Shown here piece after piece: positions 24,132-63,565 of a stretch of 64,000 bases of DNA. The stretch covers positions 62,001 to 126,000 of the forward strand of contig JACOEH010000001.1 in assembly GCA_024998685.1 (NCBI GenBank). Direction: 5' to 3'. Origin of the DNA: Nitrospira sp. (GTDB lineage: Bacteria > Nitrospirota > Nitrospiria > Nitrospirales > Nitrospiraceae). Within the stretch, counting starts at the first letter, position 1. Each line of letters opens with the position of its first letter. A model generated the notes under the pieces. It searched no databases and was not told where the DNA came from. It worked only from the letters and a program-made list of their open reading frames with translations. The translations under genes and the position numbers were made by a program.

Positions 24132-24821
24132 TCATTGCGATGAGGCTGTTGAGGGATGTGGTCGCTCCTTCCATTCCAACAGCGATTCTTCCGCCAGGTT
24201 TAAATACCCCACCACATCGTGATCGCTGACCTGTGCAAAGTCGAGATAGTGGTTCCCCACGGCCCGGAAGAGGTCCGGCACGGCGAGGACGACTAATTCA
24301 TCCGTCTGTGCGCGGGCCTCTTGGATAGTCTCTGTCGGACCGACCGGAATAGCTCCAATCAGGCGACGTGGTTTGAAGCGCCGGATGGACTCGACGGATG
24401 CGAAGAAGGTGGAACCGGTAGCGATTCCATCATCCACGAGAATGACGATGCGGTCGGTGAGCATAGGCAACCGGCGGCCTTGCCGGTAGAGCTCCTGCCG
24501 CCGAGCGATCTCTCGTTGCTGCACCTGAACGATCTCCTCCAGGTCCGAGCGAGAAAGGCCGTACGCCGCCATCGCATCAGGGTTCAGATAAATCGTTCCT
24601 GTCTCACCCACCGCACCGAGGGCGTACTCGGGATTATCCGGTGCTCCCAGCTTTCGAGCGATGAAGACGTCCAGCGGAAGATGTAGCTCCAGGCTCAACT
24701 GGTACCCGACCGCCACCCCGCCACGTGGAAGCGCTAAAATGAGAGCTGCTTCAACCTCGCGATACGGAGTCAGTCGTTCAGCGAGCCTTCGACCTGCCTC
24801 TTCTCGATTCTTGAACGTCAC
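24132..24821 (-). CDS. Phosphoribosyltransferase-family protein
   Basis: 229 residues, GTG start. PRPP-binding signature RIVILVDDGIATGSTFFA at about residues 123-140; N-terminal LALPRGGVAVGYQLSLELHL and LDVFIARKLGAPDNPEYALG are typical of the predicted phosphoribosyltransferases found near hydrolases, stress proteins and Hsp20. Natural substrate unknown. A 9-nt-period repeat lies directly upstream. Confidence 0.85.
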   Translation of the reverse strand: MTFKNREEAGRRLAERLTPYREVEAALILALPRGGVAVGYQLSLELHLPLDVFIARKLGAPDNPEYALGAVGETGTIYLNPDAMAAYGLSRSDLEEIVQVQQREIARRQELYRQGRRLPMLTDRIVILVDDGIATGSTFFASVESIRRFKPRRLIGAIPVGPTETIQEARAQTDELVVLAVPDLFRAVGNHYLDFAQVSDHDVVGYLNLAEESLLEWKERPHPSTASSQ

Positions 24822-24832
24822 ACGAACCTCTG

Positions 24833-24902
24833 TTTGTCTTGTTGTTCTTGTCGCTCTCGTTTGTTTGGTTCAACCGGATAAACAAGATCAACCAAACAAA
24901 CC
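24833..24902. repeat. Two-armed 9-nt-period repeat, copy A
   Basis: Pyrimidine/T-rich nonamers (for example TTTGTCTTG, TTGTTCTTG, TTTGTTTGG) run up to a centre TTCAACCGG and are followed by purine-rich nonamers (ATAAACAAG, ATCAACCAA). The second arm is roughly the reverse complement of the first, so an imperfect hairpin is possible. Lies between the phosphoribosyltransferase start and a small membrane-protein gene. Confidence 0.75.
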
Positions 24903-29132: not shown

Positions 29133-29142
29133 AACGAGGGAT

Positions 29143-29205
29143 GGTTTGTCTTGTGTGTCTGGTTTGTCTGGTTCAACCAAACAAACCAGAAAAACTAAAT
29201 AAACT
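29143..29205. repeat. Two-armed 9-nt-period repeat, copy B, between hydG and hydD
   Basis: Seven consecutive nonamers: GGTTTGTCT occurs twice, with TGTGTGTCT between; the centre is GGTTCAACC; then AAACAAACC, AGAAAAACT and AAATAAACT. The inner GGTTTGTCTGGTT pairs with AACCAAACAAACC. It is in the only sizeable gap of the hydrogenase structural genes, so it would be present in the operon mRNA. Confidence 0.8.
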
Positions 29206-57703: not shown

Positions 57704-60547
57704 ATGCGGATTGAGAGGACAAGAGCGGCACCTCGTGAAGTGAGGAGGGCGACAGCCTGGTATGCCCGGCCGGCAGAAGCTCTGGCTGATGAACTGCTGA
57801 CAGACCTCGACGCGGGTTTGAATAGCGATGAAGCGGCACGCCGGCGAACCGAAGAAGGACTCAACGAATTACCTGAAGCTTCTCCTCCCTCGCTGCTGAA
57901 ACTCTTTTTCTCGCAGTTCTCAAGCCTTCTCGTGTGGGTGTTGATCGGGGCGGCCGTTGTGTCCGGTTTGTTGGAAGACTGGATCGATGCGGCGGCGATT
58001 CTGGCCATCGTGTTTCTCAACGGTGTGCTGGGGTTTGCGCAGGAATTCCGAGCCGAGCGATCGCTGGCGGCGCTGCGCAAGATGTCGGTCGCGATGGCCC
58101 GCGTCATTCGCGCGGGCGCGCTGCAGTCCATTCCGGCACGAGAACTGGTCAGAGGAGACGTGATCGCCCTGGAGGCGGGCGATCGTATTCCGGCGGATTC
58201 ACGCTTGTTCTACACAACGAACTTCCAAGCTCAAGAAGCCTCACTCACCGGCGAATCGACGCCTGTACAAAAACAGGCGGACCTGCTCGATACCACCGAG
58301 GTCCCGCTCGCCGATCAACGCAACATGGTCTTCATGGGCACCGTGGCCGTCTCCGGCAAGGCCCGTGCGGCGGTAGTGGCGACAGGTTTTGACACGGAAC
58401 TGGGCCGGATCGCCGCCATGATCCAGAAGGCCTCGGAGGAAGAGCGTACCGAAACACCGCTGCAACGTCGGTTGGAACAATTCGGCTATACGCTCCTGTG
58501 GCTGGCGCTCGGCGTCGTCACGGTGGTGTTCGCTCTCGGGTATCTCCGAGGGGAACCGCTGGTGGAGATGTTTCTCATATCCGTGAGCCTCGCTGTGGCG
58601 GCTGTGCCCGAAGGTCTTACCGCTGTCGTCACGATTACACTGGCCTTGGGTGTGACGAGGATGGCCAAGCGACATGCGTTGATTCGTAAACTTCCCGCAG
58701 TCGAAACGCTGGGTTCTGCCACAGTGATCTGCACCGACAAGACCGGCACCTTGACGAAGAATGAGATGACGGTGACGCGTGTGATCATGGACGACTCTCA
58801 CTTCGAAGTGACCGGCGAGGGATACGAACCGAAAGGGGAAATCCGGGGAAGCAGTGCTGAGCCAAAAGTCCTGAGTGCTGAGTTTTCAAGTCAAGGATTC
58901 GATCGTTACTCTGATAACTCAGGACTCAGGACTCAGGACTCAGCACTTCCCACTGGTCTGCGTGACCTTCTGACTGCCGCGGCGCTGTGCAACGGCGCGA
59001 CATTGCAACAAGAGAACGGAACCTGGCGGATCATCGGCGATCCGACGGAAGGCGCGCTGCTCGTGGCGGCGGCGAAGGCCGGTCTCACGAAGGCTGAGTT
59101 GGAGCGCCGGGCGCCGCTGGACAGGGAAGTTCCGTTCGATGCCGAGCGGAAGATGATGACGATCGTCCGCCGAACGGAGCAGGGCCGCATGGCTTACTGC
59201 AAAGGCGCACCCGATGTCTTGCTGAAACGTTGCGCTGCGCGTCTCACGTTGGATGGCCGGACTGAGGCATTGGACGACGAGCATCGGCGGCGGATCGGCG
59301 AAGCCGACACGTTGTTGGCGCAACAAGCCCTCCGCGTACTGGGCGTCGCGTATAGGCCCCTTGGCCAACCGTCGAGTACGGATGAAGACCTTGAGCGCGA
59401 TTTGATCTTTCTCGGCCTCTTCGCGATGAAGGATCCCTTGCGGCCCGAGGCGACAGAGGCGATTCGTCTCTGTCGGGGTGCAGGCATCCGTACCTCCATG
59501 ATCACAGGTGATCACAAGGAGACGGCGATCGCAATCGCTCGCGAATTGGGCCTGTATCGCGACGACGGGATGGCGTTGTCCGGGTCAGAGCTGGATAGCT
59601 TGACCGACGAGCAATTGATGCAACGTGTCGAGCGCGTGAGCGTGTACGCCCGGGTGTCGGCGGAGCACAAGCTCCGGATCGTCCAGGCCTGGAAGCGGAA
59701 CGGGGCCATTGTCGCCATGACCGGTGACGGGGTCAACGACGCGCCGGCCATCAAAGCGGCCGATATAGGCGTGGCAATGGGGATGGCCGGCACCGACGTG
59801 ACAAAAGAAGCTTCGGACATGGTGGTGACGGACGACAACTTCGCCTCGATCGCCGCAGCGGTCGAGGAAGGCAGGGGCATCTTCGACAACATCAGGAAGG
59901 CGGTGCATTTTCTCCTGTCGTGCAACGTCAGCGAAGTGTTGGTCATGCTCTTTGCCGCATTGCTGGGCTTGCCGCTGCCCCTCTTGCCGATCCAGATCCT
60001 CTGGATGAATCTTGTCACGGACGGTTTTCCAGCCCTGGCCTTGGCCGTGGATCCGAAGGCGCCCGATCTCATGAGCCAGCCACCTCGCCGCCCCGACGAC
60101 CGGCTCTTCGACCGAACCCGTTTCCTGTCGATCGGCGGCGAAGGCTTGATGTTGGCTCTTGTCGCCTTGGGCACATTCAGCGCGAGTCTCTTTGTCTGGC
60201 ATCAGAGTATCGAGCAAGCACGAACAGTGACCTTTACCGTCATGGTGCTCGTGCAACTCGTGCATGCATTCAACTCCCGAAGTGATCATTTGTCACTCTT
60301 CCAACTGGGGATGACCACCAATCGCGCACTCATCTGGGCATTTCTTCTGTCGCTCGCGATGCAACTGGCCGTGCTGACGATCCCCGCCGCGACATCGGTT
60401 TTCAAAGTCGCCCCCTTACCTCTCGAGGATTGGGAACTCATGGCGTTCATGGGGCTGGTCCCCCTCGTCGCAATGGAAGTAGTCAAATGGCTGAGGCGCC
60501 GGCAAAATGATAAGACGGGGACAGGATGTAAGTCGGCTAGCGCTTAG
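57704..60547 (+). CDS. P2-type cation-transporting ATPase with in-frame repeat insertion
   Basis: 947 residues. N-terminal cation-ATPase domain, actuator motif LTGEST, phosphorylation motif [16 protein letters not shown], hinge [20 protein letters not shown], and C-terminal helices ([20 protein letters not shown]). Resembles Ca2+ and other P2 pumps; the exported ion cannot be fixed. Residues about 384-415, directly after the conserved [10 protein letters not shown] of the nucleotide-binding domain, are encoded by a palindromic repeat and look foreign. The 3' end overlaps lpdA by eleven bases, convergent. Confidence 0.92.
58853..58948. repeat. 7-nt-period palindromic element inside the ATPase gene
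   Basis: Left arm AGTGCTGAG at 58853 and GTCCTGAGTGCTGAG at 58868-58882; right arm at 58918-58948 made of tandem CTCAGGA units ending CTCAGCACTT. The arms are largely reverse complements over about 30 bases, with a spacer of about 35. The whole insert keeps the reading frame open and adds roughly 32-34 residues. Confidence 0.8.
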
Positions 60548-61952
60548 GTGTGTAAATGTGCGTCGCTTGTCCGTGAAAGAGTTCCGCCGCCTCCATGACC
60601 GTCTCGCTTAATGTCGGATGCGGATGAATTGAAGCCGCCAGGTCTTCGGCGACCGCCCCCATCTCCACCGCCAAAACGCCTTCCGCAATCAACTCTCCTG
60701 CCCCCGCTCCACACAATCCCACACCGAGAATTCGCCCGGACTCGGCATCGCACACCAATTTGGTCAGACCGTCGTTGCGGCCCACGGTGGCGGCTCGACC
60801 TGAAGCCGCCCAGGGAAAGCGCGTCACCTTGACCGCTTGTCCCGCAGCGTTGGCGGCTTCTTCCGTCAGGCCGCACCAGGCGATTTCGGGATCGGTGAAG
60901 ACGACGGCTGGAATAGCGGCAGGATCGAAGACCGCCTGTTTGCCGGCAATCACTCCGGCCGCGACCAATCCTTCGTGCGTGGCCTTGTGCGCAAGCATCG
61001 GTTCTCCAACGACGTCGCCGATCGCCAAGATGGTCGGCTCGGCGGTGCGTAATTGACGATCGACCTGCACGAACCCTTTCTCCGAGATTGCGACTTTGGT
61101 GTGTTCGAGTCCGAGGTGCTCCGTGTTCGCTCGGCGTCCCACCGCGATGAGCACCCGATCGAAAGTCTCTGTGCCGGCCCCGTCAGGTCCCGTCAGCGTC
61201 GCCGCGATACCGTCTTGGCGCGGTTCCAGTTTCTCCACCTTCGTATTCAGTCTGATCGCCTTGAACCGCCGCTGCAGGCGCTGCTGCAACGGCCTCACGA
61301 GATCCGGATCGGCACCGTTGAGCAGACGCGGCAGCATCTCTACGACCGTCACTTCGGATCCGAGAGCCTCATAGACGGTGCCCAACTCCAGCCCGATGTA
61401 TCCACCGCCCACGACAAGCAAGCGGGCGGGAACGCCGGGCAAGTCGAGCGCACCGGTGGAATCCATCACTCGGGGATCATCGAGCTTGAGCGACCCTGGA
61501 ACGACCGGGCGTGAGCCGGTGGCGAGGATCGTATGCGCACAGGAAAGCGTTTTCGTACCGTCGGGACCGGATAATGTCAGTGTCGTGGGATTCGTGAACG
61601 TTGCCCGCGCTTGGAACAGGTCTACCTTGCGGCTGTTCGCCAGCGTCCGCACACCCTTGGTCAGTTTGCCGATGACGCCCTTCGTCCGTTCACGAAGCGT
61701 GTCGAGATCGATCTTGGGTTTCTCAAAATGAATTCCCCAGCCCTCCGCGTCTGCTGCGTCGGTAACCAGCTTGGCTGCATGGAGCAACGCTTTCGAGGGA
61801 ATACACCCCCGCAGAAGACAGACGCCTCCCAGTTGCGGTTCGAGGTCGATCAACGCGGCGCGCAGGCCTAGATCCGCTGCATGGAAGGCGGCGGCGTAGC
61901 CGCCTGGGCCCGCGCCGATCACGGCCACGTCATAGTGGTTTGTCTCGTTCAT
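60537..61952 (-). CDS. lpdA: Dihydrolipoyl dehydrogenase (E3)
   Basis: 471 residues. FAD site YDVAVIGAGPGGYAAAFHAA, redox pair GGVCLLRGCIPSKALLHAA, NAD site RLLVVGGGYIGLELGTVYEA, and a His-Pro dyad near the C-terminus (SIHPHPTLSE). Start ATG 61952 (MNETNHYD) fits the family; the frame is open 39 codons further, but those codons are the 9-nt repeat. Third gene of aceE-aceF-lpdA; regenerates lipoamide with NAD+. Confidence 0.93.
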   Translation of the reverse strand: MNETNHYDVAVIGAGPGGYAAAFHAADLGLRAALIDLEPQLGGVCLLRGCIPSKALLHAAKLVTDAADAEGWGIHFEKPKIDLDTLRERTKGVIGKLTKGVRTLANSRKVDLFQARATFTNPTTLTLSGPDGTKTLSCAHTILATGSRPVVPGSLKLDDPRVMDSTGALDLPGVPARLLVVGGGYIGLELGTVYEALGSEVTVVEMLPRLLNGADPDLVRPLQQRLQRRFKAIRLNTKVEKLEPRQDGIAATLTGPDGAGTETFDRVLIAVGRRANTEHLGLEHTKVAISEKGFVQVDRQLRTAEPTILAIGDVVGEPMLAHKATHEGLVAAGVIAGKQAVFDPAAIPAVVFTDPEIAWCGLTEEAANAAGQAVKVTRFPWAASGRAATVGRNDGLTKLVCDAESGRILGVGLCGAGAGELIAEGVLAVEMGAVAEDLAASIHPHPTLSETVMEAAELFHGQATHIYTPKR

Positions 61953-62089
61953 CTGGTCTTTCTTGTCTATCTCGTCTTTCTGGTCTATCTCGGTCTCGTC
62001 CTGGCTTACTATCGCAAATCTCACAACTTCTTCAGCGCCATTATCTGTGTTGCCACGGTCATCTATCAACCAGACAGACCGGACAGACT
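61939..62089. repeat. Two-armed 9-nt-period repeat, copy C, between aceF and lpdA
   Basis: Seven T/C-rich nonamers from 61939 (TTTGTCTCG, TTCATCTGG, TCTTTCTTG, TCTATCTCG twice) and, after a spacer of about 60 bases, purine-rich nonamers CTATCAACC, AGACAGACC and GGACAGACT at 62063-62089. The left arm runs into the first codons of lpdA. It fills the only gap between aceF and lpdA. Confidence 0.75.
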
Positions 62090-62090
62090 T

Positions 62091-63443
62091 TTAGAGTCCC
62101 AAAAACATCGCCTGAAAGTCTTCCAACGCTTTGGCGATTTCGTTGGTAAAACGCGCGCCGACCGCTCCATCCACCAGACGATGATCGTAGGCCACGCACA
62201 ATTGCAAGACCCGGCGGGGCACGAATTGGCCGTCGCGATACACCGGCATCATGCGGGCCTTCCCGACGCCCAAGATACCGACTTGTGGCGCATTGATGAT
62301 CGGAGTGAACGGACCGGAGCCGAGCCCACCCATGTTGCTCACGGTAAACGTGGCGCCGCGCAACTCTTCCAGCTTCACCTCGCGTTGACGCGTGCGTTCC
62401 GCCAGATCAGCGAGCTCGACGGAAATTTGAAACAGGTCTTTATGGTCCACGTCATGGACCACCGGCACGATCAATCCCGCGGGCGTATCCACGGCGACGC
62501 CGATGTTGTAATAGTCCTTGTAGATCACTTCGCCGCCGGTGAGGTCGAGGGCGGCGTTCAACTGCGGATACCGCTTCAGAGCGTGGACGACGGCTTTGAT
62601 GATGAGGCTGGTGAGCGTCAGTGTCGCGCCTTTCTTCTTGAAGTCGAGCACGTAGCGTTTGTGCAGCTCCATCAGATCGGTGATGTCGGCATCCTGAAAT
62701 TGATGAACGTGAGGAATGGTCGTCCAAGACTGCGTCATGTTCGCCGCAATCTTCCGCCGCAGTGACGGGAGAGGCTCGCGGCGCTCCGTGCCGTACGTCG
62801 TGGTAAAGACGCCGCCCGATCCGGAAGGCCCGGCGGCAACGCCGCTGCGCCTGGTTCGTTCACGAACAAAGGCTTTGACATCATCGGCCGTAATCCGACC
62901 GCCGGCTTCAGAGCCTTTCACTTGCGTCAGATCCACGCTCAATTCGCGGGCAAGCCGGCGCACCGACGGAGGCGCAGGGATGGCGGCTCCGTCGGACGAC
63001 GAGGAAGGCGTTGCAGCCATCTTGTCCTTAGGCGGTGAGGGCGACGGCTTCTCCGCTTCCTGTGAAGCTGTTGTGGAAGGTTCAGTCGGCGGCGCGTCCC
63101 GTCCTTCCACGGCCTCCGCATGGGCCGATTCGACGACAGCCGGCCGTTGCGGGGCTGGAGCAACGGCTGGCTTATGCGGCGTCGGCGTCGTGGCCGACCG
63201 ACCTGCGCCCTCTGCACCGTCCAGTTCGACGAGGGCTTGCCCGACCTTCACGTGATCTCCCTCGCGGACCAGCAAGCGTACAACTGTACCGGCTCCCGGC
63301 GCCGGTACCGGAATCGTGGCCTTGTCGGTCTCCAACTCGATCAACGCTTGGCCTTCGCTGACCTGATCGCCTTCGTGGACCAGGACCATGACGACATCGC
63401 CGCCTTCGATTCCTTCAGCGAGAAACGGTAGTTCCACTTTCAT
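62091..63443 (-). CDS. aceF: Dihydrolipoamide acetyltransferase (E2)
   Basis: 450 residues. One lipoyl domain (LIELETDKATIPVPAPGAG, Lys in TDKA), Pro/Ala-rich linker (about 80-150), peripheral-subunit-binding domain (PSVRRLARELSVDLTQVKGS), and the catalytic domain with YDHRLVDGAVGARF at the C-terminus (His and Asp of DHRLVDG). Transfers acetyl from the E1 product to CoA. Only one lipoyl domain, while many AceF proteins with a homodimeric E1 have two or three. Confidence 0.93.
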   Translation of the reverse strand: MKVELPFLAEGIEGGDVVMVLVHEGDQVSEGQALIELETDKATIPVPAPGAGTVVRLLVREGDHVKVGQALVELDGAEGAGRSATTPTPHKPAVAPAPQRPAVVESAHAEAVEGRDAPPTEPSTTASQEAEKPSPSPPKDKMAATPSSSSDGAAIPAPPSVRRLARELSVDLTQVKGSEAGGRITADDVKAFVRERTRRSGVAAGPSGSGGVFTTTYGTERREPLPSLRRKIAANMTQSWTTIPHVHQFQDADITDLMELHKRYVLDFKKKGATLTLTSLIIKAVVHALKRYPQLNAALDLTGGEVIYKDYYNIGVAVDTPAGLIVPVVHDVDHKDLFQISVELADLAERTRQREVKLEELRGATFTVSNMGGLGSGPFTPIINAPQVGILGVGKARMMPVYRDGQFVPRRVLQLCVAYDHRLVDGAVGARFTNEIAKALEDFQAMFLGL

Positions 63444-63450
63444 AGCTCAG

Positions 63451-63565
63451 TCTCGTCTCGGTCTTGTTTGTCCCGTTTGTTTGGTTAAGTGGAGTCCTCG
63501 GCATTCTGGATCTCCAATCTGATAAACCGATTAACCCAGATAAACCGAACAGGCCGGATAGACTT
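63451..63565. repeat. Two-armed 9-nt-period repeat, copy D, between aceE and aceF
   Basis: T/C-rich arm at about 63451-63486 (TCTCGTCTC, GGTCTTGTT, TGTCCCGTT, TGTTTGGTT), a 34-base spacer, then purine-rich nonamers at 63521-63565: GATAAACCG occurs twice, with ATTAACCCA, AACAGGCCG and GATAGACTT. Fills the whole intergenic gap of this operon joint. Confidence 0.75.

Follow-up and report, generated by a model that had tools for sequence, protein, structure and literature searches.

Two-armed intergenic repeats with a 9-nt period in Nitrospira

The window, i.e., the whole 64,000-nt stretch of Nitrospira DNA that was analysed, contains four inverted pairs of 9-nt arrays, each with the order TTTGTYTGG, then CCARACAAA. 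The two-armed 9-nt plan at all four loci is confirmed. The repeats are confined almost entirely to the genus Nitrospira and their occurrence is patchy between species. With moderate confidence we regard them as dispersed imperfect palindromes of about 60–150 bp, mostly selfish or neutral spacer DNA, in which the arms change by slippage after dispersal.

Anatomy of the four elements

An HMM of the 9-nt unit, together with its reverse complement, was used to call arms. It called two arms at each of the four loci and zero segments in 25 dinucleotide shuffles of the window. Shuffles were used because the unit read backwards fits the model, which makes reversed sequence useless as an HMM control. 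A tandem pair of TTTGTCTGG units (up to 3 mismatches) has 6 matches in the window versus 0.05 expected. On the strand on which the T/C-rich arm comes first the trained unit reads T(T/C)T(G/A)T(C/T)TGG; variation is greatest at positions 2, 4 and 6, followed by positions 8 and 3. A sequence-only reading of this DNA had proposed a repeat family which keeps a 9-nt phase. This has held: further copies exist in the same genome and in other Nitrospira, and 518 of 581 arms from the window genome and related genomes run without a phase break, the rate of breaks being 0.29 per 100 nt.

All element limits are those called by the HMM, and no strand is assigned to the elements. Element 1 (24832–24902) consists of a T/C arm (24832–24870), the centre TTCAACC and an A/G arm (24872–24902), and adjoins a phosphoribosyltransferase gene on the minus strand (24132–24821). 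Element 2 (29142–29204) has the same centre between a T/C arm (29142–29173) and an A/G arm (29175–29204). It starts 9 nt past the stop codon of a gene for an NAD-binding/Fe-S subunit and immediately precedes a gene of the Oxidored_q6 (hydrogenase small-subunit) type; both flanking genes are co-directional. In element 3 (61936–62088) a spacer of 72 nt separates the T/C arm (61936–61992) from the A/G arm (62065–62088). The element occupies the gap between a 2-oxoacid dehydrogenase acyltransferase gene (62091–63443) and a dihydrolipoamide dehydrogenase gene, both on the minus strand. Element 4 (63458–63563; T/C arm 63458–63486, A/G arm 63521–63563, spacer 34 nt) lies between the same acyltransferase gene and one whose product has a transketolase-like C-terminal domain, likewise both minus. 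Thus, the centre GGTTCAACC that had been ascribed to the loci applies to the first two and is replaced by spacers in the last two. The earlier description of all four as intergenic needs an amendment for element 3, which supplies the likely minus-strand ATG of the dihydrolipoamide dehydrogenase.

Abundance and distribution

The genome from which the window derives (4.83 Mb in 105 contigs) has at least 21 two-armed copies in the stretches that were fetched. These stretches were picked by pattern matches; all copy counts are therefore lower bounds. Genome-wide, the pattern GTTNRTYTNGTTNRTYTNG (up to 1 mismatch) has 85 matches versus 21 for the reversed pattern, and TTNRTYTNGTTNRTYTNG (no mismatch) has 38 versus 1, control counts which are inflated as the reversed unit still fits the model. 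Of 79 congeneric genomes about 15, among them N. moscoviensis, are rich in the unit; most others have 0–3 matches. A scan of some 85,000 species for the two-armed pattern returned at least 119 stretches. Among the 80 matches listed, 79 bear a Nitrospira, Nitrospiraceae or Nitrospirae label, one is labelled Deltaproteobacteria and no cyanobacterial record occurs. The single exception, a contig labelled Deltaproteobacteria HGW-15, carries several 9-nt arrays in a row (L253:2937–3267); either a real transfer or an error of binning could explain this.

According to a home-made gene finder, from which all figures on gene context derive, 225 of the 234 copies placed fall between genes and 9 within them. 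The copies of N. moscoviensis are clustered, with 16 gaps of less than 15 kb between neighbours compared to 3.7 expected.

A common core and its dispersal

The typical arm has three to five units. In a broad set the T/C arm precedes the A/G arm in each of the 164 simple two-armed copies; the reverse order does not occur. The centre is a single nucleotide in 103 of 239 copies. The sequence around it, GTTAGTTTCGTTCAACCAAACAAAC, is conserved yet not symmetric, and mismatches between the arms are kept across copies. This asymmetric core around TTCAACC is common to about 75 copies. Since these reside at unrelated loci, many copies descend from one dispersed ancestor and are not independently generated arrays.

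This observation bears directly on the proposal that arrays arise locally by slippage alone, as suggested for heptamer repeats, with the second arm generated by template switching on a hairpin. Such an origin would agree with the whole-unit indels between orthologues, with the dominance of 7- and 9-nt periods in noncoding DNA and with the fact that the unit at one site can differ between sister species (see below). It does not explain why unrelated loci carry the same asymmetric core in so many copies. Further, a unit of one arm resembles its mirror unit in the other no better than a permuted partner (0.547 versus 0.549), and on this ground growth by template switching on a hairpin was rejected. 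We consider a purely local origin rather unlikely. The slippage growth suggested by the sequence-only reading survives as a process which changes existing copies, not as their sole source.

How, then, might an element be copied from a donor into a new intergenic spacer, as dispersal would demand? A candidate vehicle is present in some lineages only. In one related genome (G020) four copies are alike in the element and in the outer flanks; they are part of a MITE-like unit which ends in CAGGATGCTGAAAAAG and CTTTTTCAGCATCCTG. In the broad set of 167 copies such a terminus adjoins 21 copies on the left and 18 on the right, about five times the expectation of roughly 4 per side; by the terminal inverted repeats that characterize a MITE, about 12% of the copies are so flanked. 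MITE-like elements of about 126–190 bp with CAGGATGCTGAAAAAG-type inverted termini and 9-nt arrays inside were seen at L098:2531–2703 and in L108, L109, L244, L283 and L299. A different dispersed repeat of about 195 bp (L056:2705–2900), with dozens of copies in related genomes, is probably another MITE-like family.

In these lineages a transposase acting on the outer termini may have carried out the copying; elsewhere templated repair or recombination would perhaps serve. Several results weigh against the dispersal we favour. A vehicle is apparent neither in the genome of the window (MITE-like termini at 0 of 21 copies) nor in N. moscoviensis (0 of 35). A target-site duplication was not detected, the longest shared flank word being 3.60 versus 3.57 in permuted data, a comparison in which fuzzy element ends could hide a weak signal. 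Lastly, at the sites compared between the own genome and its sister G080 the old spacer is replaced, not split.

Mobilization as REP-type elements by a Y1/RAYT transposase would account for copies that are short, palindromic, intergenic and dispersed, and Y1_Tnp genes (PF01797) are present in most Nitrospira, three of them in the own genome. However, PF01797 finds no match in the complete and element-rich genome of N. moscoviensis (G041) or in the rich drafts G016 and G055; judged by this Pfam family a Y1 transposase is not needed. GTAG or CGTC occur at element ends only at background frequency. An origin of this kind is highly improbable; for N. moscoviensis, and by the absence of the tags, it was rejected. 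The earlier statement that the family is unlike REP elements was correct.

Whole-unit changes and reuse of sites

Once an element is in place, replication slippage would alter arm length in steps of 9 nt while the units drift. Orthologous copies of the own genome and G080 at one locus (L066) differ by exactly one unit, 9 nt, with flanks that are 94–96% identical. Other orthologous pairs differ by two units (18 nt, L225/L249), three units (27 nt, L306/L213) or 9+9 nt (L312/L217). Because the aligned orthologues differ by exactly these lengths, gain and loss of whole units by slippage is directly evidenced.

Different pictures emerge when the four sites of the window are viewed in relatives. The sister G080 has an unrelated 39-nt spacer in place of element 1 and weaker repeats of 7-nt type in place of element 2. 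Instead of elements 3 and 4, between flanks about 93–98% identical, G080 has two-armed or tandem arrays of a 7-nt unit (AGTGCTG/CAGCACT), two-armed at site 3. In G074 an unrelated spacer of 272 nt takes the place of element 4; in relatives devoid of the family site 3 is an ordinary spacer, of 48 nt in G010 and 75 nt in G022. At the threshold used, only a handful of intergenic 7-nt arrays exist in 120 kb of G080, therefore chance is an unlikely reason for their presence at two of five sites; a hand estimate which assumes some 100 gaps puts the probability at about 0.01. A second family with 9-nt units, of the type GCGAGACNG, is found at L232, L252 and L302, where orthologues carry the TTTGTCTGG family. 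The unit GCGAGACNG was also observed at L093:6861. In general, the periodicity of noncoding DNA in these genomes peaks at 7 nt, at 9 nt and at twice these values, and a few 8-nt arrays occur. Arrays of 8 nt (CCCCGTTA), some of them two-armed, were noted in N. moscoviensis at L082:526, L087:15518 and L093:4293. For the cluster C97 (L067) a search of five relatives matched repeats only, so that synteny is not comparable there.

One may speculate that Nitrospira possesses a general process by which two-armed arrays, of 7- and 9-nt period, are built into the same spacers and linkers. Between sister species the unit in use would be exchanged as though an enzyme not known had written it from a template that changes, and the 9-nt version would also supply in-frame linkers and start codons. 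We regard this as distinctly unlikely.

Hairpins and the question of selection

A further possibility is that the copies function as RNA hairpins or protein-binding arrays, with roles in stability, termination or translation coupling, or as targets of a protein that reads 9-nt steps. Stable folding is in accord with this: the median z is −5.9 over 60 copies, and many copies are located right after a stop codon or before a start. Similar hairpins reside between hupS and hupL in cyanobacteria (PMC2670836). Within the window, elements 1 and 2 fold more stably than shuffled sequences on both strands (z −3.4 to −6.1; element 2, −6.1 on both), elements 3 and 4 on one strand only, which restricts the hairpins that had been predicted for every locus.

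Transcript hairpins are therefore possible, but a detectable selection for pairing does not accompany them. The paired fraction between the arms is 0.691 versus 0.690 in permuted data, i.e., base-pair covariation is absent, and without compensatory change a selection for pairing has no support. Gaps between co-directional genes show no enrichment of copies (68% versus 74%). The lack of arm covariation together with the lack of orientation enrichment supports neither arm-templated growth nor selection for pairing. Rfam returned no match in the window. An operon-specific or terminator role was rejected as gap orientation shows no enrichment. Moreover, close relatives have unrelated spacers or other repeats at the same places, and most congeners lack the 9-nt family. 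A functional hairpin or array thus appears quite improbable to us, and the repeat-binding protein which had been considered for these arrays is not supported, as there is no evidence for one. Still, the two-armed plan is kept in nearly all copies; this counts against the favoured reading of selfish or neutral DNA, as it could reflect selection, e.g., on a DNA cruciform or on protein binding.

Copies read as protein

As 9 is a multiple of 3, copies can exist in frame inside genes. A unit of three codons would allow some of the dispersed palindromes to survive as linkers in proteins or to provide a start codon. In-frame 9-nt copies follow the N-terminal segment of waaA (kdtA; ...GLSGLFGGGNPDQPDQPNKPDEPDKLNKSDKP...) and are situated in the linker of a heptosyltransferase-GmhB fusion (...GLSG...NQTNQTN...), names which we presume from sequence motifs and general knowledge. 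Such coding copies are present in the own genome, in relatives and in N. moscoviensis. The linkers vary in length by multiples of 3; in some relatives the repeat is missing. At unit positions 8 and 3, where stop codons would arise in the frames of the coding copies, A is rare (2% and 1%, respectively), perhaps a trace of selection for open frames.

Part of element 3 (61936..61952, minus strand) is the likely start of the dihydrolipoamide dehydrogenase. A reading frame opens with an ATG at 61952 (MNETNHYDVAV...) and the product matches Pfam Pyr_redox_2; on this basis the element probably supplies the start codon. In G080 the start of the dihydrolipoamide dehydrogenase at this site is a different one.

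A related two-armed array of 7 nt (AGTGCTG ... ACTCAGG; 58853–58947, plus strand) is situated in frame within the gene of a P-type cation ATPase (57704–60547). The orthologue in G080 is longer by 21 and 42 nt. Both are multiples of 21, hence the 7-nt unit as well as the reading frame are kept.

Relation to known repeats

No description of a 9-nt two-armed repeat of Nitrospira was found in the literature searched; in one survey N. moscoviensis appears only in a table of REP counts (PMC12306157). The earlier assertion that no named family fits is sustained by Rfam. It is too broad with respect to architecture, since short-unit intergenic arrays including inverted pairs are on record, with 7-nt units, for cyanobacteria and Xanthomonas (PMC2670836, PMC4692102).

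The closest known kinds are the STRRs of cyanobacteria and the inverted heptamer pairs of Xanthomonas. STRRs usually have 7-nt units, are capable of forming hairpins and are found between hupS and hupL. They share with the Nitrospira family short tandem units between genes, the potential for hairpins and an occurrence within hydrogenase operons; like them, the 9-nt arrays consist of tandem short units in intergenic DNA in 225 of 234 instances. They differ in being usually 7-nt repeats of filamentous cyanobacteria, whereas the present repeats are 9-nt, two-armed and built around a shared core (PMC2670836). In Xanthomonas, each genome has 70–75 inverted pairs of convergent arrays of the heptamer GGGAATC (Rehm et al., 2015, PMC4692102). 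These are also short-unit arrays, mostly intergenic and variable in length between sister species. Yet their unit (GGGNATC) is a G-rich 7-nt G-quadruplex sequence as opposed to the 9-nt TTTGTYTGG, and the passages considered mention neither a shared core nor a MITE-like carrier.

Other repeats are more distant. RPEs of Rickettsia are palindromic, about 100–150 bp long and inserted in frame inside genes (PMC10969869, PMC3733652), as are the copies in waaA and in the heptosyltransferase-GmhB linker. However, RPEs end in CGTC (PMC3733652), an end which the Nitrospira copies lack, they are frequent in genes, where only 9 of 234 Nitrospira copies are located, and no 9-nt phase is described for them. 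REPs are likewise short dispersed intergenic palindromes, but of 20–40 bp, with a terminal GTAG or CGTC and often with a RAYT, none of which was found for the Nitrospira family (PMC3733652). The TAACTGA repeats of Beggiatoaceae resemble it as abundant intergenic arrays of short units; unlike it they are 7-nt direct repeats upstream of start codons and almost never inverted (PMC4679880).

Significance

The repeats form an abundant class in Nitrospira, a major genus of nitrifiers, and are undescribed in the literature searched. Over short spans of evolution they rewrite not only spacers but also linkers and probably a start codon. Orthologues that differ by exact steps of 9 nt, and a 7-nt array within a gene that differs by steps of 21 and 42 nt, allow slippage and selection on the reading frame to be measured directly. 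Further, since 7-nt and 9-nt arrays replace one another at given sites between sister species, the origin and spread of intergenic oligomer arrays, an old question, can be put to the test.
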